From NCBI GenBank assembly GCA_901472455.1, contig LR590464.1, positions 682,001-746,000 on the forward strand: a stretch of 64,000 bases of DNA, given 5' to 3'. Shown here in pieces: positions 1,410 through 43,733 of the stretch (its first letter is position 1; every line of letters begins with the position of its first letter). The notes under the pieces are model-generated. The model had not been told where the DNA came from and did no database searches. It saw only the letters and a program-made list of their open reading frames with translations. A program made the position numbers and the translations under genes. The stretch comes from Leclercia adecarboxylata (GTDB taxonomy: Bacteria; Pseudomonadota; Gammaproteobacteria; Enterobacterales; Enterobacteriaceae).

Positions 1410-4397
1410 TTACCAGCGGTGGTTCAGCAGGATATGACCGCCATACGCGTCATAACCGTTTTCACCCCACTCGCCGCTGGCGCGTAACGAGATCAGCGTG
1501 GTTTCATTCAGTTTGCCGGTAATGCCCAGCTCCAGTTGACCGCGGTCGTCCGGGGTATCGTTACTGAACGCTTCGCCGTTGAAGGCGATATCATTCTGTC
1601 CGGCACCTTTCAGCCAGTTGACTGCTACGTAAGGCTGCCATGCCTGCACATCTTTCTGATCGAAGTAGCTGGTTTTCACACCTACGCGTCCCAGAATGCC
1701 GTCATTATCAGGGGTAGAGATACGTACGCCGTCCGGCGTCTGTATGGTTTTCCTGATCAAGATAGCTATAGATGGCCTGGATCTGCGGTTCGATTTTCAA
1801 GGTTCTTTCGTTTTCTGAGTCAACGATCCAGGCGTGACCTGCTTCCAGTGATACAGCAAAGCCGTGGCTGTCGTAAGACTCGTCGCTGCGACCGTCACTG
1901 GTGAGCGAGTTGTGATACCAGCCGAAAGAGGCCCAGCTGTCGATATAGCTGCCTTTACGCAACTGTTGGTCTTCCTGCCAGGTGGCGTATACGCCGACAT
2001 TCACCCCATCGACTTTACCCTGCGCTGAACGTTTACTGCCTGTGGACGTGGAGTCAGTTTTTGCCTGACCGGCACCGAACATCACCCCGCTATGCAGTAC
2101 ACCCGTGTCCATCTTCTTGCTGATGAAATCACTGCCGACCTGCATCACGTACTGGGTGGTGTCATAGTTTACTTTACCGCCCGCCACATCGTTTTCGTGG
2201 TAGCGGCCTTTGACATACATCCAGGTGTTGAGATCTTCTTCATTGCGCAGCGTCAGCTGATCGCGATCGTCGCGTTTGTGCAGGAACATGTCCTGGGCAG
2301 CCAGGTAGTTACCTAAATAGGCACCGACCTCAGGAGCAAGATTGCTCATCTCTGGTGGGGTATAGCCGCCGCTGTTGCCGCCGTCGTTGTTACCACTGTT
2401 ATCACCGTCGGTGTTGCCGCCGTTACCGCCGTCGGTGTTACCGCCGTTACCGGCCGTCGGTGTTGCCGCCGTTACCGCCGTCGGTGTTGCCGCCGTTACC
2501 GCCGTCGGTGTTACCGCCGTTACCGCCGTCGGTGTTACCGCCGTTGCCGTCGTCGGTGTTGCCGTCGGTGTTATCGTCTTTGTCAGGAACCGGGGTAGTG
2601 TCTGCAGACTCCAGGTACCAGTTGCCATCGCTGTGCTGGTTCAGACTGTATTCCCACGCGCCAACGACGACCGGTCTGGAGAGGCTAAACGCAGCCCTGG
2701 AATCGCCACCCACGCTCACGATCTGCATACCGTTGACGGTCTTCGCGCCCGCCCCACCGATATTGCTGATACGGATATCCGATACACCTGCACTGTTACC
2801 GGTGATGGTAAGATGGTCGGTCAACGCATTGTCATCCCCCAGCACGCTGTTCATGGCGATCAAACTGCCGCTCATGCCGGTGTAATCACCGTTGATGGTG
2901 AAATCATTCCCCACACTGTCGTTCAGACCGCTGATTTGCAGCGTACCGCTGTTGGTGACGTTGCCGTTGATGGTATCGGCGGTAGAAGCACTGGACAGCG
3001 TATTTCCCTGAACCGCATTCCATGAGGCCAGAACGCCGCCGCCGAGAAATATTGACGTTATTGTTTACCGTACCTGCACTGGCGAAGGTAGCCCCGTCCT
3101 GAATCGTGACGGTGGCGGAATTGCCTGCACTTCCCAGCGTTGCGCCTTCGGCTACCAGCATCGTGCCGCTGTTCAACTGCGTGTCGCCTGTATAGCTGTT
3201 GTTGCCGGTCAGCGTCAGGGTATGGGCATCTGTTTTGATAACAGTACCGCTGCCCGTGATGCCAGTGGCAAAGTTGAAATCAGCAGCCTGATTAAATTCC
3301 AGCGTGCCGTTGTTGGTCAGCTTCCCACTTAAGGTGCCGGTTTTTTCGCCAGTACCCAGTTGCAGGGTAGCGCCTTCTGCGATGAGGGTATTACCAGCGT
3401 TGCTGACGTTGCCTGCGAAGGTGAGCTTGCCGGTATCAACCTTGATTGAATCATCCGTGCCGATGATATCCACATTACCGGTCAGCTCCCAATCGGTGCC
3501 TAACATGGTGAGAGAGGCGAAACCGTCGCCTTCATTCAGGCCAATGAAATTGCTGTCTTCAGTTCCTGTGCCTGTTAGTCGTAAAGTATTGGGTAGTTGA
3601 ATTGGTTGAAATAACATCCCCTTCCAACCGGGAGCCGGTCGTCAGAGTAAGAACGTTGTTTTTTTTCGCTGGTAAATGAAATAGCACTTTCGGCCGCCTT
3701 TGATGATTCCAGCATTAGTCACTTCAACTCTTGTGATACCAGAGGTGTGAATACCATGCTCAATCCCTTCAATCGTGCCGTTATTAGTAATTTTACTATT
3801 GCTGGTGACGCCGGAGAGTTCGACACCATTATTTAAATTACCTTTTATTTCACCATTATTAATTAGAATTATTCCGATCTTACTGGCAATCCCTGTTTTG
3901 CCTTCGATATGGCCAGTTGAAGCATTCTCAATCCTGAGCATCGACGAATCTTCTTCAATTTGGATGCCGCTTTCTGCACCCGTCACGTTACCCGCGTTTT
4001 TAATGGTGCCTGTCATTGAGTGAACAGTAATGGCATTTCCAGTGCTCGATGAAATCACACCAGATTGTGTGTTGTTAATGACAGGTTCCTGCGTACCGGT
4101 ATTAATATAGACAGCATCTCCGGTATTGGTAATTTTTTCCCTCGTTATCAACAGTAAGTAACTGATCGCCTGCTATCGTAACAGCCGCAGTGTTTGAACC
4201 CGTAGATATGAGTACATTTTCATTAATTGTGTATGACGGGTCGATGGAAAAAGTCTGAGCCTCCGTCGTAGAATCCTCAATGATGGCCGCTGGTTGCCAT
4301 TAATGGAGCAAACATAAGTAAAGCAGGGGAATATTCTGCTCATTGATTTTGTTATTTTATTTAATTGCGGGGTTTTTCTTTTCATTGCCACGTCCAT
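1410..4397 (-). CDS. AIDA/pertactin-type autotransporter (type V secretion), with several frame breaks
   Basis: A classical monomeric autotransporter of about 990 residues. The N-terminus (MKRKTPQLNKITKSMSRIFP...) is an extended signal; removing one base at about 4328 gives PALLMFAPLMAT. The passenger has beta-helix repeats of the type ITNNGTIEG / NAGNVTGAESG, then pertactin-like LTLTGNNSYTGDTQLNSG. A low-complexity linker of Gly-Asn-Thr-Asp repeats follows, then a ~290-residue beta barrel starting near NLAPEVGAYLGNYLAAQ, with WMYVKGRY, a region of alternating strands, and a terminal aromatic (LLNHRW). Frame breaks occur near 4328, 4145, 3630, 3045, 2452 and 1747. Each one I checked closely is repaired by removing one base, so the gene may be intact in the cell. 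It probably mediates adhesion or aggregation; the passenger gives no enzymatic motif. The AT-rich 5' flank suggests H-NS silencing. Confidence 0.85.
2381..2566. repeat. 24-bp tandem repeats encoding the autotransporter linker
   Basis: About seven head-to-tail copies of a 24-base unit (ccgtcggtgttaccgccg + ttaccg) lie inside the autotransporter gene. They encode an 8-residue Gly/Asn/Thr/Asp repeat (GGNGGNTD-type) between passenger and barrel. The 24-base period keeps the frame when copies are gained or lost. An extra G at 2453 breaks one copy. Confidence 0.9.
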
Positions 4398-34546: not shown

Positions 34547-34631
34547 ACGCGGGTGCTTGAGGCTGTTTGCCTGAAGCATTGCTGGAAGGGTAAACAGAAG
34601 AAAGCCCCACTCAACATAACGTTGATGTGCA
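34547..34631 (+). ncRNA. 5' remnant of a hok-type toxin mRNA
   Basis: The stretch gggtgcttgaggctgtttgc, then a complementary gtaaacagaagaaagcccca, resembles the 5' end of hok-family mRNAs (GGTGCTTGAGGCTGTCTGCC ... GCAGACAGAGAAAAGCCCC). It is cut off by the left end of the IS element. The toxin part of such a locus reappears at 50506. This identification rests on remembered hok sequences and should be checked by alignment. Confidence 0.6.
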
Positions 34632-34674
34632 TGCACTGCACCCATTTAGTTGGACTCTCAAACTGGAGAGTCCT

Positions 34675-35184
34675 ATGCCCGGACGTAAATATACCCTCGA
34701 AGAACGCCTTGCAGTCGTTATGCACTATCTTGCTGGCGATGAAGGCTATCGGTTAACTTCAGCCCGTTTCAACGTTCCCAGAACCCAGGTAAGAATCTGG
34801 GTTGCAGCCTATGATGCTTATGGTGAAGAGGGATTAAAGCCCAGAGATAAGGGCGTATCCATCGATCCTGAAATCAGAATTGAAGCTGTGAAAGCCGTGC
34901 TTTCCGGACAGATCTCCCTTACCCAGGCCGCGACTAAATTCAATGTTGCTGGTGCATCATCTGTCGCCAAATGGGTAAAAGTGTTCAATGAGCATGGTGA
35001 AGAAGGGCTTCGAGCACTCAAGGTAGGCACAAAAAGGGTATCTTACATGGCTGAACACCCTGAACTTATTGAAGCCGCAGAGGAACGATCAAAAGAGCAA
35101 CGGATTCATGAGCTGGAAAGGAAGGTCAAACGTCTGGAATTACGGATAGTTTATCTACAAAAGCTGAAAGCCTTAGTTCGGTAA
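34675..35184 (+). CDS. IS150-like OrfA (helix-turn-helix protein)
   Basis: A 169-residue DNA-binding protein of an IS3-family element. It has two helix-turn-helix parts (RLTSARFNVPRTQVRIWVAA and SLTQAATKFNVAGASSVAKW) and ends in a leucine-zipper-like coiled coil (RIHELERKVKRLELRIVYLQ). The layout and wording (EERLAVVMHY, ARFNVPRTQVR) are those of IS150 OrfA. Translation is expected to slip back one base near the end to make OrfAB. Confidence 0.92.
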   Translation: MPGRKYTLEERLAVVMHYLAGDEGYRLTSARFNVPRTQVRIWVAAYDAYGEEGLKPRDKGVSIDPEIRIEAVKAVLSGQISLTQAATKFNVAGASSVAKWVKVFNEHGEEGLRALKVGTKRVSYMAEHPELIEAAEERSKEQRIHELERKVKRLELRIVYLQKLKALVR

Positions 35185-36044
35185 GAGATAAGGTTCTCGT
35201 TGTTGACGAACTAAGGCAGCATTATCCGCTTGACCAGCTGCTGAGTATTGCCCGGATACCCAGAAGCACGTTTTACTATCATCTTAAGGCACTTAAGTCT
35301 CCTGGAAAATACGATGCAATAAATCGTCGAATCAGTGAGATATATGATGAAAACCAGGGTCGATATGGTTATCGACGGATAACGCTGGCGCTCAGAAGAG
35401 AGGGGGGCGTGATCAACCACAAAGCGGTCCAGCGCCTGATGAATGCTCTTGACCTTAAAGCAGCTATCAAAGTAAAGCGTTACACCTCATGGCGTGGCGA
35501 ACGGGGAAGTGCTGCTGCCAATATCATGCAACGAAACTTCAAAGCCAGCCGGCCTAATGAAAAATGGGTCACAGACGTCATCGAGTTTGCTGTCAATGGC
35601 CGGAAACTCTATCTTTCTCCGATCATCGATCTCTTCAATAACGAAGTCATTTCATACAGTATTTCGGAACGCCCAACCATGCCGATGATTGACGACATGT
35701 TGATTAAGGCATTTGCCAGAATGGAGGCAAACAGCAAACCAGTACTTCATTCAGATCAGGGCTGGCAATACCGGCATCGATGGTATCAGTATCAGTTGCG
35801 TGAGTTTGGGGTTTTGCAAAGCATGTCCCGTAAAGGAAACTGTCTGGATAATGCCTGTGCAGAATGCTTTTTCGGGACCTTAAAATCTGAATGCTTTTAC
35901 ACCCGTAAATTCAACGATGTTGACGAACTGAAGATCGTTCTTGAGGAGTACATTCATTACTACAACACCCGGCGAATCAGCCTTAAATTTAACGGCCTCA
36001 GCCCGGTTGAATATCGCCTGAAAACCTATCCGCTACGAATTTGA
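35163..36044 (+). CDS. IS150-like OrfB (DDE integrase, made as OrfAB fusion)
   Basis: The catalytic half of the transposase, in the -1 frame relative to OrfA. The frame is open from 35163 (AESLSSVRDKVLVVDELRQ) through the stop at 36044. There is an HTH_21 region (RYGYRRITLALRREGGVINH). The DDE triad is in WVTDVIEF (first D), HSDQGWQYRH (second D) and NACAECFFGTLKSE (E). A slip on caaaag at 35158-35163 would fuse it to OrfA. The catalytic parts are intact, so it could act in trans on related ends. Confidence 0.92.
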   Translation, partial: AESLSSVRDKVLVVDELRQHYPLDQLLSIARIPRSTFYYHLKALKSPGKYDAINRRISEIYDENQGRYGYRRITLALRREGGVINHKAVQRLMNALDLKAAIKVKRYTSWRGERGSAAANIMQRNFKASRPNEKWVTDVIEFAVNGRKLYLSPIIDLFNNEVISYSISERPTMPMIDDMLIKAFARMEANSKPVLHSDQGWQYRHRWYQYQLREFGVLQSMSRKGNCLDNACAECFFGTLKSECFYTRKFNDVDELKIVLEEYIHYYNTRRISLKFNGLSPVEYRLKTYPLRI

Positions 36045-36371: not shown

Positions 36372-38348
36372 TTGCCTGGTTATATTTATTCATGTTCCCC
36401 GCCGTTAATTCTATTTCTTGAAATTTTTTCAGCCAGCGCACTCGCAGCAGAAGCACCGAAAGAGGCTGCCGCCGCCACACAACAGGCCAATAACGCCCTG
36501 TTCAGCCAGCTGCCTTTCTCCGATAACACCGACTTTACCGATGCCCACAAAGGCTTTATCGCCGCACTCCCCGCAGAGGTAATCAAAGGCGAACAGGGCA
36601 ACGTAGTCTGGGATCCGCAGCAGTACGCTTTTATTAAAGAGGGCGATAAAGCGCCGGATACCGTCAACCCCAGCTTATGGCGGCAGGCGCAGTTGATTAA
36701 TATCAGCGGCCTGTTTGAGGTGACGGACGGGGTGTATCAGATCCGTAACCTCGACCTGTCGAACATGACCATTATTGAAGGCGCCACCGGCGTGACCGTG
36801 GTCGACCCGCTGGTCTCGGCGGAAACGGCAAAAGTCGGGATGGATCTCTACTTTAAAAACCGCGGCCAGAAACCGGTGGTGGCGGTGATCTACACCCACA
36901 GCCACGTTGACCACTACGGCGGCGTGCGCGGCGTGGTGAATGAGGCCGACGTCAAGGCCGGTAAGGTGAAAATCTATGCCCCGGCCGGCTTTATGGAAGC
37001 AGCGGTGGCAGAAAACATTATGGCCGGGAACGTGATGAGCCGTCGCGCGAGCTATATGTACGGCAACCTTCTGAAACCGGATGCCAAAGGCCTGGTCGGT
37101 GCCGGGCTGGGTACCACCACCTCCGCCGGGACCGTTACCCTGCTTGCCCCAACCAATATCATCGAAAAGGATGGTCAAAAAGAGACCATCGACGGTCTGA
37201 CCTATGACTTTATGTTGGCACCAGGCTCAGAAGCGCCCTCTGAAATGCTCTGGTATATCGAAGAGAAAAAACTGATTGAATCCGCCGAGGACGTGACCCA
37301 TACCCTGCATAACACCTACTCCCTGCGCGGTGCCAAAATCCGCGAGCCGCTGCCGTGGTCGAAATACATCAACGAAGCCATTGTGCGCTGGGGTGATAAA
37401 GCCGAGATCCTGATGGCCCAGCACCACTGGCCGACCTGGGGCAATGAAAACGTCAATAAACTGCTGAAGAGCCAGCGCGACCTGTACCGTTACATCAACG
37501 ACCAGACCCTGCGCATGGCGAACCAGGGCCTGACCCGGGACGAAATCGCCGTCAACTTTAAACTGCCGGATTCGCTGGCGCACACCTGGGCCAACCGGGG
37601 TTACTACGGCTCGGTGAGCCACGACGTGAAAGCCACCTACGTGCTGTATCTCGGCTGGTTTGACGGCAACCCGGCCACCCTGGATGAACTGCCGCCGGAA
37701 GAGGCCGCGAAGAAATTCGTTGACTACATGGGCGGCGCGGACGCCATTCTGCAGAAGGCCAAAACCGACTTCGACCAGGGTAACTATCGCTGGGTGGCGC
37801 AGGTGGTGAGCAAAGTGGTGTTTGCCGATCCAAACAACCAGGCGGCCCGCAACCTGGAGGCGGACGCGCTGGAGCAACTGGGTCATCAGGCCGAATCGGG
37901 CCCGTGGCGTAACTTCTACCTCACCGGCGCACAGGAACTGCGTAACGGCGTGGTGAAAGGCCCGACCCCTAACACCGCCAGCCCGGATACGGTGCGGGCG
38001 ATGACTCCAGAGATGTTCTTCGACTATCTGGCGGTGCACATCAACGGCGAGAAGGCCGGGACGGCGAAATCGGTGTTTAACATCGATCTTGGCAGCGACG
38101 GCGGTAAGTACAAGCTTGAGCTGGAAAACGGAGTGCTGAACCACACCGCCAACGCCGAAGCGACCGATGCTGACGCCACCATTACCCTGAATCGCGACAC
38201 CCTGAACAAAATCATCCTCAAGGAAACCACACTGAAACAGGCCGAGGAGAACGGCGCGGTGAAAGTGACCGGTGACGGGACAAAACTTGATGCCATGCTG
38301 GGATATATGGATAAATTTGAGTTCTGGTTCAATATCGTGACACCGTAA
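36372..38348 (+). CDS. Periplasmic alkyl sulfatase (SdsA1/YjcS family)
   Basis: A 658-residue metallo-beta-lactamase-fold sulfatase that hydrolyses primary alkyl sulfates such as dodecyl sulfate to alcohol and sulfate. The N-terminus is signal-like (LILFLEIFSASALA before AEAPKE). The zinc motif THSHVDHYGG is near residue 175, with other ligands in APGSEAPSEM and ESAEDVTHTLHNTYSLRGAK. A dimerisation helical region (NRGYYGSVSHDVKATYVLYL, QLGHQAESGPWRNFYLTGAQ) and a C-terminal SCP2-like lipid-binding domain (EMFFDYLAVHINGEKAG to the end) follow. The length matches Pseudomonas SdsA1 and E. coli YjcS. The start codon is uncertain: a poor RBS precedes 36372. It is unbroken and next to the IS. Confidence 0.9.
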   Translation: MPGYIYSCSPPLILFLEIFSASALAAEAPKEAAAATQQANNALFSQLPFSDNTDFTDAHKGFIAALPAEVIKGEQGNVVWDPQQYAFIKEGDKAPDTVNPSLWRQAQLINISGLFEVTDGVYQIRNLDLSNMTIIEGATGVTVVDPLVSAETAKVGMDLYFKNRGQKPVVAVIYTHSHVDHYGGVRGVVNEADVKAGKVKIYAPAGFMEAAVAENIMAGNVMSRRASYMYGNLLKPDAKGLVGAGLGTTTSAGTVTLLAPTNIIEKDGQKETIDGLTYDFMLAPGSEAPSEMLWYIEEKKLIESAEDVTHTLHNTYSLRGAKIREPLPWSKYINEAIVRWGDKAEILMAQHHWPTWGNENVNKLLKSQRDLYRYINDQTLRMANQGLTRDEIAVNFKLPDSLAHTWANRGYYGSVSHDVKATYVLYLGWFDGNPATLDELPPEEAAKKFVDYMGGADAILQKAKTDFDQGNYRWVAQVVSKVVFADPNNQAARNLEADALEQLGHQAESGPWRNFYLTGAQELRNGVVKGPTPNTASPDTVRAMTPEMFFDYLAVHINGEKAGTAKSVFNIDLGSDGGKYKLELENGVLNHTANAEATDADATITLNRDTLNKIILKETTLKQAEENGAVKVTGDGTKLDAMLGYMDKFEFWFNIVTP

Positions 38349-38629: not shown

Positions 38630-39649
38630 TTATTTCAGGTGGTTCTGCAGCGCTGCGCCCGCCTGCTCCAGCGCTGTTCTGACAGTGGGCTCCTGACTTA
38701 ACGGGTTCAGCAGCCCGTAGTCATGGATCATGCCGTTGTAGCGTGTCACGGTCACAGGCACGCCGGCGGCATCGAGCTTGCGACCGAACGCTTCACCTTC
38801 GTCACGCAGAACATCCAGTTCCGCTGTCTGGATTAAGGTTTGCGGGAAACCTTTCAGCTGTTCCGTGGTGGCCCGCAGTGGCGAGGCAAGAATATTATTA
38901 CGGTCTGACGCGTTAGTGGTGTAGTTATCCCAGAACCATTTCATCATGTTTTTCGTCAGGAAATAGCCGTTTTCATACTGGTTATAGGATGTGCTGTCAA
39001 AATTCGCATCCGTTACCGGCCACAGCATCACGTTATAACGGATCTTCGGTCCGTTAAACTGTTTAGCCTGCAGCGCCACAGAGGCCACCATATTCCCCCC
39101 GACGCTGTTACCGACCAGGCCCAGACGGCTGCCATCGACGCCAATTTCCTGACCGTGTTCAGCCACCCATTTGGTTGCTTCATACGCCTGGTTAATCGCG
39201 ACAGGGAAGTGGGCCTCCGGTGACGGCGTGTAGTCCACATATACCGCCGCAGCGCCGGATGAACGAACCAGGTCCCGGATCAGACGTTCATGGGTCGGGA
39301 AATCTCCCAGCACCCAGCCGCCACCATGGAAGAACATGAATACAGGAAGGGTGCCGGTCGCGTTGTCCGGTTTCACGATTTTCAGTTTAATGGATTGCCC
39401 GTTTACCGTGATGATTTTTTCTGCAACCTGCGCAGATGGCAGCGTAACGCCCTTCTGTGCCCGATCAGCACCTGACGGGCCTCCCTGCGGGGTCATCTGT
39501 TCCATAGGCTTGCCGTCACCGGCGTTCAGCACGTTGAGAAATGCCTGCACGCCGGCTGTGGGAGCAGGAAGGTTAACTGGTTTTTCGGAAGCCACAGCGG
39601 TGGCGGATGCGAAAAGAGCAGAAGTCAGGACAGCTGATACGGTTTTCAT
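38630..39649 (-). CDS. Secreted alpha/beta hydrolase (esterase, HSL-type)
   Basis: A 339-residue esterase or lipase of the hormone-sensitive-lipase (Abhydrolase_3) family. It has a Sec signal peptide (MKTVSAVLTSALFASATAVA), the oxyanion-hole motif HGGGW at residues 108-112, the nucleophile Ser182 in GNSVGG, the acid Asp279 in ELDVLRDEGEAF, and His309 in GMIHDYG. The substrate is unknown; the family takes short acyl esters. The start at 39649 is supported by the signal sequence. An OhrR-like regulator lies upstream, and a 38-base repeat with a palindrome lies in front of both genes, suggesting control by that regulator. Unbroken. Confidence 0.9.
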   Translation of the reverse strand: MKTVSAVLTSALFASATAVASEKPVNLPAPTAGVQAFLNVLNAGDGKPMEQMTPQGGPSGADRAQKGVTLPSAQVAEKIITVNGQSIKLKIVKPDNATGTLPVFMFFHGGGWVLGDFPTHERLIRDLVRSSGAAAVYVDYTPSPEAHFPVAINQAYEATKWVAEHGQEIGVDGSRLGLVGNSVGGNMVASVALQAKQFNGPKIRYNVMLWPVTDANFDSTSYNQYENGYFLTKNMMKWFWDNYTTNASDRNNILASPLRATTEQLKGFPQTLIQTAELDVLRDEGEAFGRKLDAAGVPVTVTRYNGMIHDYGLLNPLSQEPTVRTALEQAGAALQNHLK

Positions 39650-39732
39650 GATTAAGCCTCGTTAGATGTGTGTTGATTGTATGATTCGGTTGAGTGCCGG
39701 TTGTTGATGGCACTTGCCTTGTGTAGATAATA

Positions 39733-39770
39733 CTTGCACGCAATATTCTTTCGGTCAAACATTATTTAAA
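39733..39770. promoter_or_regulatory. Putative MarR/OhrR operator repeat, copy 1 (esterase side)
   Basis: cttgcacgcaatattctttc... to attatttaaa aligns without gaps to 40403-40440, with most positions identical. It includes the near-palindrome TTGCACGCAA, 84 bases before the esterase start. Confidence 0.6.
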
Positions 39771-40020
39771 TAACTTTTTCTGAATATCCTGGCCTTCAGT
39801 TAATTAAGTGTTTAAAAACAGTTAATTAGAAGATACTGCATTTTGTTATCCTGATTTACCTGCTGATCCGCTCTGCCGCCAGCTGCCTCTCTTCACAACC
39901 AGTGTTCTGCTAACTGCCCTGCGGCTGGCCGGTCTTAGGGCTGGCTCAGTCAATACGGTTCTGCGCAGTTTCGTTGAAAACCGGACGTTCCTTGCTATCT
40001 CTCCTCAAGACATGTGGCGT

Positions 40021-40135
40021 ATTAACCGACACAGACCCGGGGCAGGTAATCCCTTGTCTGCCTGGCTGACGTCTGAGCGAGTGGTCTCTCGTTTATGTTG
40101 AATATAAAAGTAAACGATCACTTATATAAATACAA
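40021..40135 (-). repeat. Inverted copy of the aldehyde dehydrogenase promoter region
   Basis: The complement of 40101-40135 matches 41370-41404 at about 31 of 35 bases. The complement of 40021-40063 matches 41447-41489 at roughly 36 of 43. The copy faces away from the ALDH gene, towards 39.9 kb, where no gene is now found. Confidence 0.7.
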
Positions 40136-40402
40136 TGATTTTTTATGTGCTTTTTTCGGGTGTTATGTGAATGACGTCGCTGGCGTTCATGAGAAGGGGT
40201 CAGTAAGCATGAGATAATCACGGTATTCAAAGAAATGCCCGGCCCTCGCTGCTGAGCAGAAAACAAACCGGTTGCCCGGAAAATGCCTCAGGGAGAATGC
40301 AAATAAGGCAAAATTCAGGACATCTGGTCCGGCTTTTTATGACCGGCCTTGGTAAAATTATGCGCATCGCCTTGTTACCGGCATTTAACTTTTGCGAATT
40401 TA
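40136..40402. other. Non-coding stretch between repeats
   Basis: Part of the 825-base gap between the esterase start (39649) and the MarR start (40475). No gene or RNA is recognised here. The segment 39771-40020 likewise holds only short meaningless frames. Confidence 0.4.
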
Positions 40403-40440
40403 GCTTGCATGCAATATTCTTTATTGCAGATATTATTTAA
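40403..40440. promoter_or_regulatory. Putative MarR/OhrR operator repeat, copy 2 (regulator side)
   Basis: cttgcatgcaatattcttta... to attatttaa contains the perfect palindrome TTGCATGCAA and the inverted repeat GCAATA-ttcttt-ATTGC. It lies 34 bases before the regulator start, where it would give autoregulation. Confidence 0.65.
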
Positions 40441-40474
40441 AACAATTCTGGTATCTTTGCATGGAGATAATTAA

Positions 40475-40897
40475 ATGCAAAAAAACAGCATCTTAGAGGA
40501 AAAGCTATGCTTTTCTTTGTATTCGGTAACAAACGCGCTAATCCGCCAGTATCGGCCCTTGCTGAAAGAGTTTGACCTGACCTACCCACAGTTTGTCGTG
40601 CTTATGGCCCTTTACGAGCAGGACAATATCCCGTTACGGGCGCTTGGCCAGAAGACATTATTTGACTCGGGAACGCTGACGCCGCTTGTACAAAAACTTG
40701 AGGCGAAGGGGTTTCTGAAAAGGATGGCTGTCGCCGGAGATGAAAGGATGAAAAATGTCGTTCTTACTGAAAAGGCGAATGAGATGAAAGAGGCTCTGCT
40801 GGATCTGCCTGGTAAGATGAGATGTACCATGCAGATGAACGATGAAGAGTTAAATCTGCTTCGGCAACTGTCGGCTAGTCTGCTGAAAGACTTGTAA
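40475..40897 (+). CDS. MarR-family, OhrR-like redox regulator
   Basis: A 140-residue winged-helix repressor. The N-terminal LCFSLYSVTNALIRQYRPLL followed by FDLTYPQFVVLMALYE is the OhrR pattern, with the peroxide-sensing Cys near residue 12. The wing region is TLFDSGTLTPLVQKLEAKGF and RKNVV-like DERMKNVVLTEKA. The start at 40475 is preceded by GGAGA. OhrR proteins normally control the peroxidase Ohr, which is absent here; the nearest likely target is the secreted esterase. The gene is unbroken. Confidence 0.88.
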   Translation: MQKNSILEEKLCFSLYSVTNALIRQYRPLLKEFDLTYPQFVVLMALYEQDNIPLRALGQKTLFDSGTLTPLVQKLEAKGFLKRMAVAGDERMKNVVLTEKANEMKEALLDLPGKMRCTMQMNDEELNLLRQLSASLLKDL

Positions 40898-41516
40898 GGC
40901 TTAGTGCCGGTGTGGCATGGACGGGAAGCACAGTCCGGCAATTCAGCGGTACACCAGAAGATTGCGGCAGCCGTCCATTTTTCCCGGAGGGAATTGCTCT
41001 GACGCAGAGCAACAGCGATGGCCGGAGCAGTGTCAAAAATGTTATGAGCGGCGGGGTGAAGGATGCATCCTGATTCCCCGTCATGAATGGGACGGAAATT
41101 CGGGATCCCCGGCCGGATTTAAGCCTTGTACTCGCAGAATGCATGCTCTTTTTGAGCATGATTTCCTCGTTTGAACCTAGTAAAAATTTCGCTTACTCAA
41201 AGATTCACATTTGGGGCAGTTACAGCCCATCTGTACCGGGCGGCAAAAGATTTGAGCTGCCGCCCCAGGGCGATGCGTATTCGTTCCATGACCATCTATC
41301 CTCGCCAGGACGAGTCCCGTCCACGCCAGCAGTGTTAATCCCATAATATCTGAGCGCTGTAAAATAACGTTGCATTTATATAAATGATCACTTACTTTTA
41401 TATTTGTCGCGACGCAAACGGGCAGCTTTTAGCTTCGGCGTCAACTAGGCAGACAAGGGATTACCCGCACCGTGTCTGCATCGTTCAATCCGCGGGATAC
41501 CCGGAAAGGAAATATC
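40898..41516. other. Gap with ALDH promoter region
   Basis: 619 bases without a supported gene. 40900-41345 holds only short frames with no family likeness and may be decayed coding DNA. 41370-41489 is the promoter/operator block that has an inverted copy at 40021-40135. It includes the palindrome ATTTATATAAAT and TGATCACTTACTTTTATATT, a likely TetR operator region. Confidence 0.5.
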
Positions 41517-42990
41517 ATGGAACACCCGAATATGACTGAAGCTGCAGGAAACTGGATCAACGGTAACTGGAACAACGGAGGCACGATAAGACAGGCGATA
41601 AGCCCTTCAACAGGCCAGCCACTGGGAAACTACCTGGACATCGGCACTGACGAAGCACGTCAGGCGATCGAAGCCGCCCGTACTGCCTTTGACACGACAA
41701 GCTGGTCCAGAGATCGCTCCCTGCGCTCACGTGCCCTGTTTGAACTGGCCGACGAGGTCGCAAAACGGGTGGACGAGATAGCAATCCAGCTGGCACGCGA
41801 AGGGGGGCAAGCTGCTGGCGCAGACTCAGTGGGAGCTGGCATTAACGGTGGAGTGGCTGCGTTATGGTGCCGCCACGGCACTGCTGCAGACCGGCGGGCG
41901 CGCCCTTGAAGCCGCTCCGGGAATGCATTTCCATTCCGATCCCGAACCTCTTGGCGTTGTGGGCGTTATTTCGCCATGGAACTCACCAATCATACTGTCA
42001 GTGCGCGCTGTCGCTCCCGCCCTGGCTGCCGGATGTACTGTGGTGCTGAAACTGCCGCACCAGACCGCGCTTACCAATGCCCTGTTTTCCCGGGCAATCG
42101 CTGCAGTCAAATCGCTGCCACCGGGTGTACTGAATGTGATCACCGAAACCGGGAGTACAGGCGCTTCCATGCTGGTCGACTCCCCTCTGGTGAACATGAT
42201 CAGCTATACCGGCAGCACTAAAGTAGGCCGCCTCATTGCCGCCAACGGCGCCAGAACGCTCAAACGTCTGAATCTGGAACTGGGCGGCAAAGCGCCGCTG
42301 ATCGTATTTGATGATGCAAACCTTGATGTGGTGGTGCCGCAGATCGTCATGGCACTGGTCGCGATGAATGGTCAGTTCTGCTGTACCGGTTCACGGGTAC
42401 TGGCCCAGCGTGGCATCGCCGACCGGTTGCGCGCTGCACTGATCGAGGCTTATCAGAATGTCCGGCTCGGCGAAAGCGAAGACCCGCAGGCGCAGCTTGG
42501 CCCGTTGATCGACAAGGCCAGTGTTCAGCGCGTTGACGCCGTGGTCGCGGCTGCAGGATCGTATGCAAACATTCTGGTGCGCGGCGGCCCCGTAAATGAA
42601 GGCCCTCTGGCCTCAGGCGCGTTCTACCGCCCCACCCTGATCGAAGTACAGGACCTGAGCACCGATGTCATCCAGTCTGAAGTCTTCGGGCCGGTCCAGA
42701 CTTTCGAGATTTTTGATGACGAAGCTGATGCAATCATGCGCGCAAACGCTACCGAATTCGGTCTCGCCGCGTCGGTGTTCTCAGACGACACGGCGCGTGG
42801 CCGGAGAGTTGGCAAGTCTGTTCAAGCCGGTCATATCTGGCTAAACTGCTGGGGCGTTATGTCCGAGCACTTCGAACAGAGCGGCTTCAAGCAAAGTGGT
42901 ATCGGCGTCCTCTGCGGGCCACGTGCGATTGAGCAGTTTCAGGAAATCAAGGTCTATGCGAGCGTTGAGGCTACGCCGGCGTCACTCTGA
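41517..42990 (+). CDS. Aldehyde dehydrogenase (NAD(P)+-dependent)
   Basis: An ALDH superfamily enzyme of about 490 residues oxidising aldehydes to acids. The start ATG at 41517 follows AAAGGAAAT. Motifs are GVISPWNSPIILSVRAVAPA (Rossmann, PWN), ISYTGSTKVG, LELGGKAPLIVFDD (catalytic Glu), MNGQFCCTGSRVL (catalytic Cys) and EVFGPVQTFEIFDD. One extra G in a G6 run near 41808 (LAREGGKLLAQTQWE after repair) is the only break. Substrate is not deducible. A TetR gene follows 110 bases later in the same direction and may control it through the 41.37-41.49 kb region. Confidence 0.9.
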
Positions 42991-43100: not shown

Positions 43101-43733
43101 GTGAAAATGAAAACTGATGCAGACAAGCCCCTGCGCGGGCGTCCCGTGAATGAGCATGCGCGTGAAGAACGCATGACCCAGATCCTCAACGGGGCCCGAA
43201 CCTGCTTTATACAACGAGGGTTTCACGCCTCATCTATTTCCGAGATTGGTGCGGCTGCAGGGGTCAGCGTTGCGAACATTTACCAGTACTTTCCGAGCAA
43301 GGACGTCCTCATCACGGCGCTTATTGAACTCGACCTGCAGCGGCATCACAATCTGATAAGCCGTTTCTGGAGTACTGATTTCAGTCGCAAGGCGATTGAA
43401 GAGTTGCTGGCAGAGATTTTCCTCACACCCGAGGGGCACGCGGTGGCGGTTTTACGTGCTGAAATCGCCAGTGAAGGTGCGCGTAACACACATGTTGCGG
43501 AACTCCTTCGTGATTCAGAAGCTGGCCTGATTGACAGCGTCCATAGCAGGATACGCGCGGCCCAGAGCAGCGGCCAGATATCTGCCGGACTCGATCCGCA
43601 TGCAGTGACAGAGCGCCTGTCCCTTGTTTTTGAAGGCCTCATGCGCCTGTACCTGTTCTCCCCGGACAATGGACAGAAACTCATCGAGCTGTATTACCGC
43701 CAGTTTGCCGATACGCTTCAACTGAAGTTTTGA
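43101..43733 (+). CDS. TetR/AcrR-family transcriptional regulator
   Basis: A ~210-residue repressor. The N-terminal helix-turn-helix (ILNGARTCFIQRGFHASSIS, EIGAAAGVSVANIYQYFPSK) is typical TetR. The C-terminal ligand domain is unlike named members. The start is GTG at 43101 or ATG at 43107. Both lie near a weak RBS (GGAAT). The arrangement behind an ALDH gene suggests local control, inducer unknown. Confidence 0.88.
   Translation: MKMKTDADKPLRGRPVNEHAREERMTQILNGARTCFIQRGFHASSISEIGAAAGVSVANIYQYFPSKDVLITALIELDLQRHHNLISRFWSTDFSRKAIEELLAEIFLTPEGHAVAVLRAEIASEGARNTHVAELLRDSEAGLIDSVHSRIRAAQSSGQISAGLDPHAVTERLSLVFEGLMRLYLFSPDNGQKLIELYYRQFADTLQLKF

Follow-up and report, generated by a model that had tools for sequence, protein, structure and literature searches.

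The closest described counterpart of the locus analysed here comes from A. tumefaciens, where EstR, a paralogue of OhrR, represses the divergent esterase gene estC as well as its own gene. As described in PMC5201249, one operator lies at the estC promoter and another at that of estR; EstR binds both, and cumene hydroperoxide releases it by way of Cys16. Canonical OhrR/Ohr systems (X. campestris, A. tumefaciens, C. violaceum) combine the MarR fold and a 2-Cys switch with an adjacent target, which is ohr. The OhrR box is TACAATT-AATTGTA in A. tumefaciens (PMC5201249) and ATAGTGCACTAT in C. violaceum (PMC3469484), both unlike the box described below.

We analysed a 64-kb stretch of Leclercia adecarboxylata DNA (hereafter the window), in which the gene of an OhrR-like putative repressor lies divergent from an alpha/beta-hydrolase esterase gene. 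Like EstR/EstC (Atu5211/Atu5212), the window has two operators, here candidates, with one for each promoter, and its regulator shares with EstR the sensing Cys, two Tyr and the second Cys (PMC5201249). The window also shares the MarR fold, the 2-Cys switch and the adjacent target with the canonical systems, but the target is ohr there and an esterase here. EstR is 37% identical to the window regulator over 100 aa and falls outside its branch. EstC belongs to Abhydrolase_6, whereas the window esterase belongs to Abhydrolase_3, and a tblastn search of the EstR/EstC locus with the window esterase returned no match at E 0.01. The EstR operator GTTATCGCGATAAC contrasts with CTTGCnnGCAAG in the window: the EstR palindromes, which we found in the pAt record (L101), differ from the box here, and this different box occupies the same place in 24/24 loci with a single site and in 7/7 loci with two. 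The EstR operators lie within ~100 bp without gene fossils between them, whereas such fossils separate the two in the window.

A first-pass annotation of the window had put forward the secreted esterase as a new OhrR target. This claim is unsupported, or at best partly right, because an OhrR paralogue paired with an esterase is already proven in EstR/EstC, albeit with a different operator; the kind of system is therefore known. Among the matches listed from the open-licence literature, EstR/EstC was the one conspicuous case of an OhrR-type regulator of an esterase, and these matches held no earlier report of the operator type, the esterase family or the duplicated, partitioned layout presented here.

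An esterase/ohrR pair with a repeated box

The esterase gene (38630-39649, minus strand; 339 aa) was assigned by Pfam (PF07859, E 2.4e-69) and alignment to alpha/beta-hydrolase-3, the bacterial HSL type. All features of HSL-type esterases are present, namely HGGGW (H108-W112), the G-x-S-x-G nucleophile (S182 in GNSVGG), Asp (D279) and His (H309), and these residues are invariant in 9/9 aligned homologues. The closest solved chain is 6kmo_A (E 3e-195), and the solved esterase of PDB entry 6kmo matches the window esterase over its full length. It may be an Enterobacter enzyme named CinB. The N terminus, judged by eye, resembles a Sec signal, and secretion is putative. The window esterase reads QGGPSGADR where most aligned homologues have QEARQVLIG, an odd stretch that possibly stems from a sequencing error. 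The genome is a single contig of 78% estimated completeness with split frames (aldehyde dehydrogenase and ohr), suggesting sequencing errors in an uncorrected long-read assembly.

The regulator gene (40475-40897, plus strand; 140 aa) encodes a MarR-family protein (Pfam MarR, 8.1e-13) whose closest solved relatives are OhrR proteins (2pfb, E 1.1e-24; 1z91, E 4.8e-24). C12, Y26, Y37 and C117 are invariant in 6/6 aligned regulators. The two Cys, spaced by 105 residues, correspond in the alignment to positions 22 and 127 of the X. campestris protein (OhrR, 2pfb/2pex), which the introduction of PMC5201249 gives as the sensing and resolving Cys. These structure matches and invariant residues bear out the first-pass description of the regulator as OhrR-like and show that it has the 2-Cys residues. 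Its score against NCBIfam NF052638 (Vibrio-type OhrR) is 151.7 bits, below the cut-off of 200, and we therefore call it "OhrR-like, 2-Cys type" rather than by the name of the equivalog. Neighbourhood to an ohr gene, a mark of the OhrR subfamily, is lacking: the ohr gene of this genome (L068, contig 1, 609984-610366, apparently split in two frames) lies ~112 kb away. A search of this ohr locus for the box found none, and we set aside the idea that the regulator controls the genome's own ohr. We found no OhrR of ordinary family level in this genome (next best match E 3.6e-7), which is a weak absence at 78% completeness.

The direct repeat that had drawn attention to the locus is real and longer than the 38 bases first reported. 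A repeat search gave two stretches of 70 nt, at 39701-39770 on the esterase side and 40372-40441 on the ohrR side, which are 70% identical and spaced by 671, with no strand assigned. CTTGCA starts at 39733 in the first copy, as originally placed, and at 40404 rather than 40403 in the second. The perfect 10-base palindrome of the second copy (TTGCATGCAA, 40405-40414) was confirmed, and gene coordinates and strands agree with one copy preceding the divergent esterase gene and the other the MarR-family gene. Site comparison delimited two candidate operators, CTTGCACGCAA at 39733-39743 (copy 1) and CTTGCATGCAA at 40404-40414 (copy 2), likewise without strand. The longer inverted repeat keeps 10 bp in copy 2 and is imperfect at the centre in copy 1, where the palindrome TTGCACGCAA has two imperfect central bases.

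Taken by itself, the 10-mer palindrome is at chance level in the window (5 matches with <=1 mismatch vs 4.1 expected), and we rejected it as evidence on its own. The composite box CTTGCNNGCAATATTCTTT has 2 matches in 64 kb, each with 0 mismatches; with <=3 mismatches, shuffled sequences gave a mean of 0.25 matches, and 2 were reached in 4/100 shuffles. In the 5.06-Mb genome, CTTGCNNGCAAKNTWCTT matches perfectly at these two sites only, and with <=2 mismatches it has 26 matches in all vs 29 for a reversed control pattern. A wider regulon was rejected because the pattern shows no excess over this control. Six other genomes summed to 37 matches vs 35 for the control, with 8 vs 4 in G437, 6 vs 4 in G516 and four genomes at or near control; G587 holds two further perfect matches to the box pattern. 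As the comparisons below indicate, it is conservation across loci, not the 10-mer itself, that lifts the box above chance.

The segment 38393-43955 is 97% identical to a plasmid region of Enterobacter chuandaensis, and the module is therefore probably on mobile DNA here. A viral origin was rejected, as a scan of viral contigs found no relative. Transposase-like frames (judged by eye) and an alkyl-sulfatase gene, the latter not seen in the module of related loci, lie near the esterase gene at 34627-36044 and 36372-38348.

The box in relatives of the pair

In a scan of species genomes, relatives of the regulator were encoded at 27 loci, and at 15 of them the identity to it is 64-92%. The esterase gene adjoins the regulator gene divergently in 14/15 of these, and 12 of the 14 have one short intergenic region. 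Together with L009, L012 and ten further genomes of the window's genus, these 12 make up 24 single-intergenic pairs, which include Enterobacter, Pectobacterium, Acinetobacter, Pantoea and Tatumella. Within the genus of the window, the regulator is present in 12/61 genomes. Among the matches, 12 enterobacterial plasmid records carry the pair (H2-H13), and four were taken for comparison.

All 24 single-intergenic pairs contain CTTGCnn[G/A]CAAG, located 73-75 bp before the position aligned to the start codon of the window's ohrR in 24/24 (the first ATG of L050 and L052 lies 3 bp further on). Site sequences are identical in L044/L085, L046/L086 and L048/L088, and each of these pairs may represent one genome twice. 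The full inverted repeat CTTGC-nn-GCAAG is found in 17/24 boxes with varying centres (CG, GC, AC, AT, GT), and one arm pair is broken in the other 7/24 (3/4 Pectobacterium, both Tatumella, L081 and L092). In 14/15 loci of ~6.4 kb (L041-L055), CTTG[CT]nn[GA]CAA on the plus strand occurs at the expected promoter place or places only. The remaining locus, L053 of Acinetobacter seifertii, has no box in its sequence and lacks this esterase, a different alpha/beta hydrolase (Abhydrolase_1) occupying its place. There (1757-3423) the regulator, 64% identical, is divergent from the hydrolase gene and preceded by a 20-bp palindrome, ATAGTTTGATATCAAACTAT. The search of genomes for the motif beside homologous pairs, which the first-pass annotation had suggested as a check, thus found it conserved in 24/24 single-site and 7/7 two-site loci, counts that are not independent events since the loci are related. 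The lack of conservation that the annotation had named as a refutation was therefore not seen.

Two further arrangements were seen on Klebsiella plasmids. A further ohrR copy (89% identical) is present at 1956-2449 of L007 (pINF078-VP), close to an IS256-family transposase gene. No esterase gene adjoins this copy, and its own box CTTGTATGCAA lies 71 bp upstream of the ATG. At 3925-6536 of L010, a 120-kb plasmid of Klebsiella pneumoniae, the gene of an esterase of 75% identity is grouped with those of an Abhydrolase_6 hydrolase and of an OhrR-like regulator (36% identity). The perfect palindrome TTGCAATTAAATTGCAA upstream of that esterase gene is nearer to the classical OhrR box, and L010 is possibly an independent OhrR-esterase pairing.

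Two candidate operator copies, gene fossils and putative promoter elements

Seven loci, namely the window, the plasmid loci L005-L008, Enterobacter sp. kpr-6 (L041) and Cedecea colo (L042), have an intergenic region of 525-910 bp with two boxes CTTG[CT]nn[GA]CAAT in 7/7, and their regulators form one clade (100/100). Linked to the pair in 7/7, on its downstream side, are an aldehyde dehydrogenase (ALDH) gene (in the window 41517-42990, plus strand, split into the frames 41472-41909 and 41848-42990) and a TetR-family regulator gene (43101-43733, plus strand, from the frame list and domain search). Between the two boxes of the window we detected remnants of three genes. A second ohrR leader and 5' end (ohrR', 39785-39885, plus strand) was found by local alignment to 40452-40564, clearest in the leader and first codons, with a score of 50 that 0/500 shuffles reach. 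It is followed by an inverted second ALDH upstream region and 5' end (ALDH', 39890-40145, minus strand; blastn E 3.5e-24 for 39965-40145 and 0.008 for 39890-39942), for which we took 41488 as the beginning of the ALDH gene, ~29 bases ahead of its likely ATG (41517). The third is a second esterase 5' end (est', 40231-40336, minus strand; 65% over 110 columns, E 4e-5).

The Cedecea locus has the same order of fossils at higher identity, with ohrR' over 181 columns at 83%, inverted ALDH' over 288 at 89% and est' over 119 at 89%, while those of the window have drifted to 65-69% identity. ALDH' was detected in 7/7 loci and est' in 6/7, and the ohrR' alignment is reached by <=1/500 shuffles in 6/7 (1/500 in L008). 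The exception is L041, where the search of the intergenic region gave no significant est' and 59/500 shuffles reach the ohrR' score. Moreover, CAATATTCTTT is shared by 12/14 box copies, with a one-base difference in each of the remaining two, and stands in place of the CAAG(A/T)T(A/T)CTT of single-site relatives, a pattern expected from duplication of one changed site. We thus read the two copies, by comparison of sequences, as the fossil of a duplicated single shared divergent operator in one lineage. Neither the duplication nor the gene fossils between the copies appeared in the first-pass annotation, and both are new here.

The inversion of ALDH' implies an event more than plain tandem duplication. 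The two copies are 76% identical to each other in Cedecea vs 61-73% in the other six loci, and the Cedecea copies are on average 69% identical to the esterase-side copies of the other loci; this likeness makes gene conversion or a later re-duplication possible there. The ALDH upstream region at 41360-41404 and the fossil at 40101-40145 are 84% complementary, and both stretches keep an imperfect palindrome around GATCACTT/AAGTGATC, possibly an operator of the TetR regulator at 43101-43733.

The promoter elements around the boxes were counted at fixed positions relative to the box. While the operator is kept in 24/24 single-site, 7/7 esterase-side and 7/7 ohrR-side copies, [AG]AT[AG]C at its left edge is found in 24/24, 7/7 and 0/7, respectively; in the window this element is AATAC on the plus strand (39729-39733), part of the probable esterase -10 region AAGTATTAT on the minus strand. 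GTCAA, which reads TTGAC on the esterase strand and is the probable esterase -35 (39754-39758, minus strand), is found in 24/24, 6/7 and 0/7. The opposite holds for TATA[AC]T, the probable ohrR -10, with 24/24, 0/7 and 4/7; it is missing at the expected place in the ohrR-side copy of the window, L005 and L042. On the esterase strand, TTGAC(C/T) is separated from TATTAT by 20 bp. Promoter prediction by a simple scan gave nothing convincing and was set aside: it found none on the esterase strand at copy 1, none at copy 2, and one plus-strand match (39704-39731) just left of copy 1. By these counts, the elements serving the missing gene tend to be gone from each copy, and the operator persists in both. 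No other sequence feature argues as strongly as this complementary loss alongside operator retention that the two operators still matter, although the losses are not seven independent events because the seven loci share one ancestor.

Proposed regulation and alternative explanations

We consider it likely that the OhrR-like regulator encoded at 40475 uses both repeats as operators and would repress the esterase gene and itself from these separate sites. The promoter assignments, binding, repression and peroxide induction in this model are predicted. In its reduced state, the regulator dimer would occupy the CTTGCnnGCAAG-type box. A single such site separates the divergent esterase and ohrR genes of relatives. 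It sits in the spacer of the esterase promoter, flanked by the probable -35 TTGAC and the -10 region, and abuts the ohrR -35 region ~74 bp ahead of that gene's start, so that one dimer could repress both genes. On oxidation by an organic hydroperoxide, C12 would form a disulfide with C117 of the other subunit; the dimer would then leave the DNA, and the esterase gene and ohrR would be switched on. In the lineage of the window, the module would have been duplicated and the inner ohrR and esterase copies would have decayed, each surviving gene retaining its own operator copy with its own promoter elements. The first-pass proposal that a redox-sensing regulator controls the esterase and itself is partly supported: comparison backs an OhrR-like regulator with 2-Cys residues and a box conserved with the pair, while the control itself is predicted. 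Several observations weigh against the model. The inverted repeat is shortened in copy 2 and centrally imperfect in copy 1, 7/24 single-site boxes have a broken arm pair, the NCBIfam score falls below its cut-off, TATA[AC]T is missing from the window's ohrR-side copy, TTGAC(C/T) and TATTAT lie 20 bp apart, the promoter scan gave nothing convincing, the core also occurs outside the branch, ALDH' is inverted, and L041 gave no significant est' or ohrR'.

The regulator might bind the box and yet sense another signal, such as hypochlorite, an electrophile or an ester-derived ligand, or it might also act as an activator. Its target is an esterase rather than a peroxidase, and other members of its branch stand beside an oxidoreductase or another hydrolase. 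In a review (PMC10458429), NaOCl is named as an additional signal to which B. subtilis OhrR responds, and two OhrRs are marked as R/A (repressor/activator). Against this stands the complete conservation of the four 2-Cys peroxide-switch residues, which EstR shares, and EstR is responsive to cumene hydroperoxide (PMC5201249); we find this explanation possible but doubtful. We regard it as unlikely that the duplication is real but one operator is a passive relic, with only one gene still under OhrR control. Much of the insert is decaying, as its fossils attest, and the window copies differ by 30% over 70 nt. This is countered by the operator being kept in 7/7 and 7/7 copies while neighbouring elements were lost in a complementary way, and while the fossils between the operators drifted to 65-69% identity in the window.

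Whether the box belongs to this regulator at all can be judged from loci in which the partner gene differs. In two genomes of another family (G437 and G516), an OhrR 53-54% identical to the regulator is divergent from an ohr gene, whose product is 61-62% identical to the Ohr of the window's genome (OsmC domain verified in L084), and CTTGCATGCAA or CTTGCACACAAG precedes the ohr-linked ohrR. These OhrRs and that of Pseudoalteromonas sp. THAF3 belong to the same branch as the window regulator and have TTGCATGCAA or TTGCACACAA boxes upstream as in the window, but their partner is ohr, not an esterase. Since the box also precedes ohrR/ohr pairs, it follows the regulator. A further eight OhrR loci of lower identity, picked by identity and taxon ahead of any box search, all have TTG[CT]nn[GA]CAA within 250 bp upstream (8/8). 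They come from 47 distant rows which, together with 13 close ones, made up the 60 matches listed of 475. Five have an ohr gene in the locus (Pseudoalteromonas sp. THAF3, two Vibrio, Photobacterium and Cupriavidus), and three, from Aeromonas and two other Pseudoalteromonas, a zinc-type NADP-dependent oxidoreductase (assigned by Pfam in L094 and L100). In the latter (L094, L095, L100), the regulator is divergent from the oxidoreductase, and paired boxes such as TTTGCGCGCAAA were observed.

The upstream count of this core took in 51 loci, with 12 occurrences vs 0.79 expected among 23 non-family OhrR loci and 4 vs 0.84 among 28 ordinary OhrR loci of the window's family. The latter (L013-L040, the best 28 below the two close ones) are ~36-41% identical to the regulator, 26/28 adjoin ohr, and CTTGCnn[GA]CAA was found in 0/28 of the oriented loci. 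In a tree of 43 OhrR rows (a chosen subset, with the root for drawing only and L096 on a long branch of unsure place), the esterase-linked OhrRs and L053 form an 18-row fork (98/93) inside a 24-row branch (99/95). The six other rows of this branch have TTG[CT]nn[GA]CAA boxes and ohr (G437, G516, THAF3) or the zinc-type oxidoreductase (three) as partner. EstR, the Vibrio-type rows and the family OhrRs fall outside, and the core is not exclusive to the branch, as the Vibrio-type rows and 4/28 family loci carry it.

A different regulator, perhaps a global one, might bind the box, its place near ohrR genes being incidental; from these comparisons, this appears very improbable. Binding of the box by this regulator is something we infer, and the family loci with the core would suit such a site, though they could equally reflect a wider OhrR box. 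Against it, the longer box has no perfect match in the genome other than those at this pair, accompanies this OhrR branch whether the partner is esterase, ohr or oxidoreductase, and is absent from the 316-bp upstream region of one Pantoea dispersa esterase homologue (one record) with no ohrR neighbour in its stretch. Finally, the copies are only 70% identical, but that the repeat arose independently or by chance is scarcely credible given the est', ALDH' and ohrR' fossils between the copies, well preserved in Cedecea, and the CAATATTCTTT reading of 12/14 copies vs CAAG(A/T)T(A/T)CTT in single-site relatives.

Returning to the two-operator model, we lean slightly towards a broader reading in which an OhrR branch with TTGCnnGCAA-type operators, the core of which also occurs outside it, has repeatedly swapped partners while mostly keeping its box. 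The partners would comprise ohr, a zinc-type NADP-dependent oxidoreductase, an HSL-type esterase and another hydrolase. A mobile lineage would then have duplicated the shared operator and split it by complementary promoter loss, uncoupling self-control from target control. The findings suggest that OhrR-type esterase control arose more than once. For an OhrR branch present in Enterobacteriaceae, Pectobacteriaceae, Erwiniaceae and Acinetobacter, and on Klebsiella, Enterobacter and Leclercia plasmids, the box provides an operator that can be tested. The doubled divergent promoter amounts to a natural experiment that labels promoter parts by gene: the parts each gene seemingly needs were retained only in its own copy, and the operator was retained in both.
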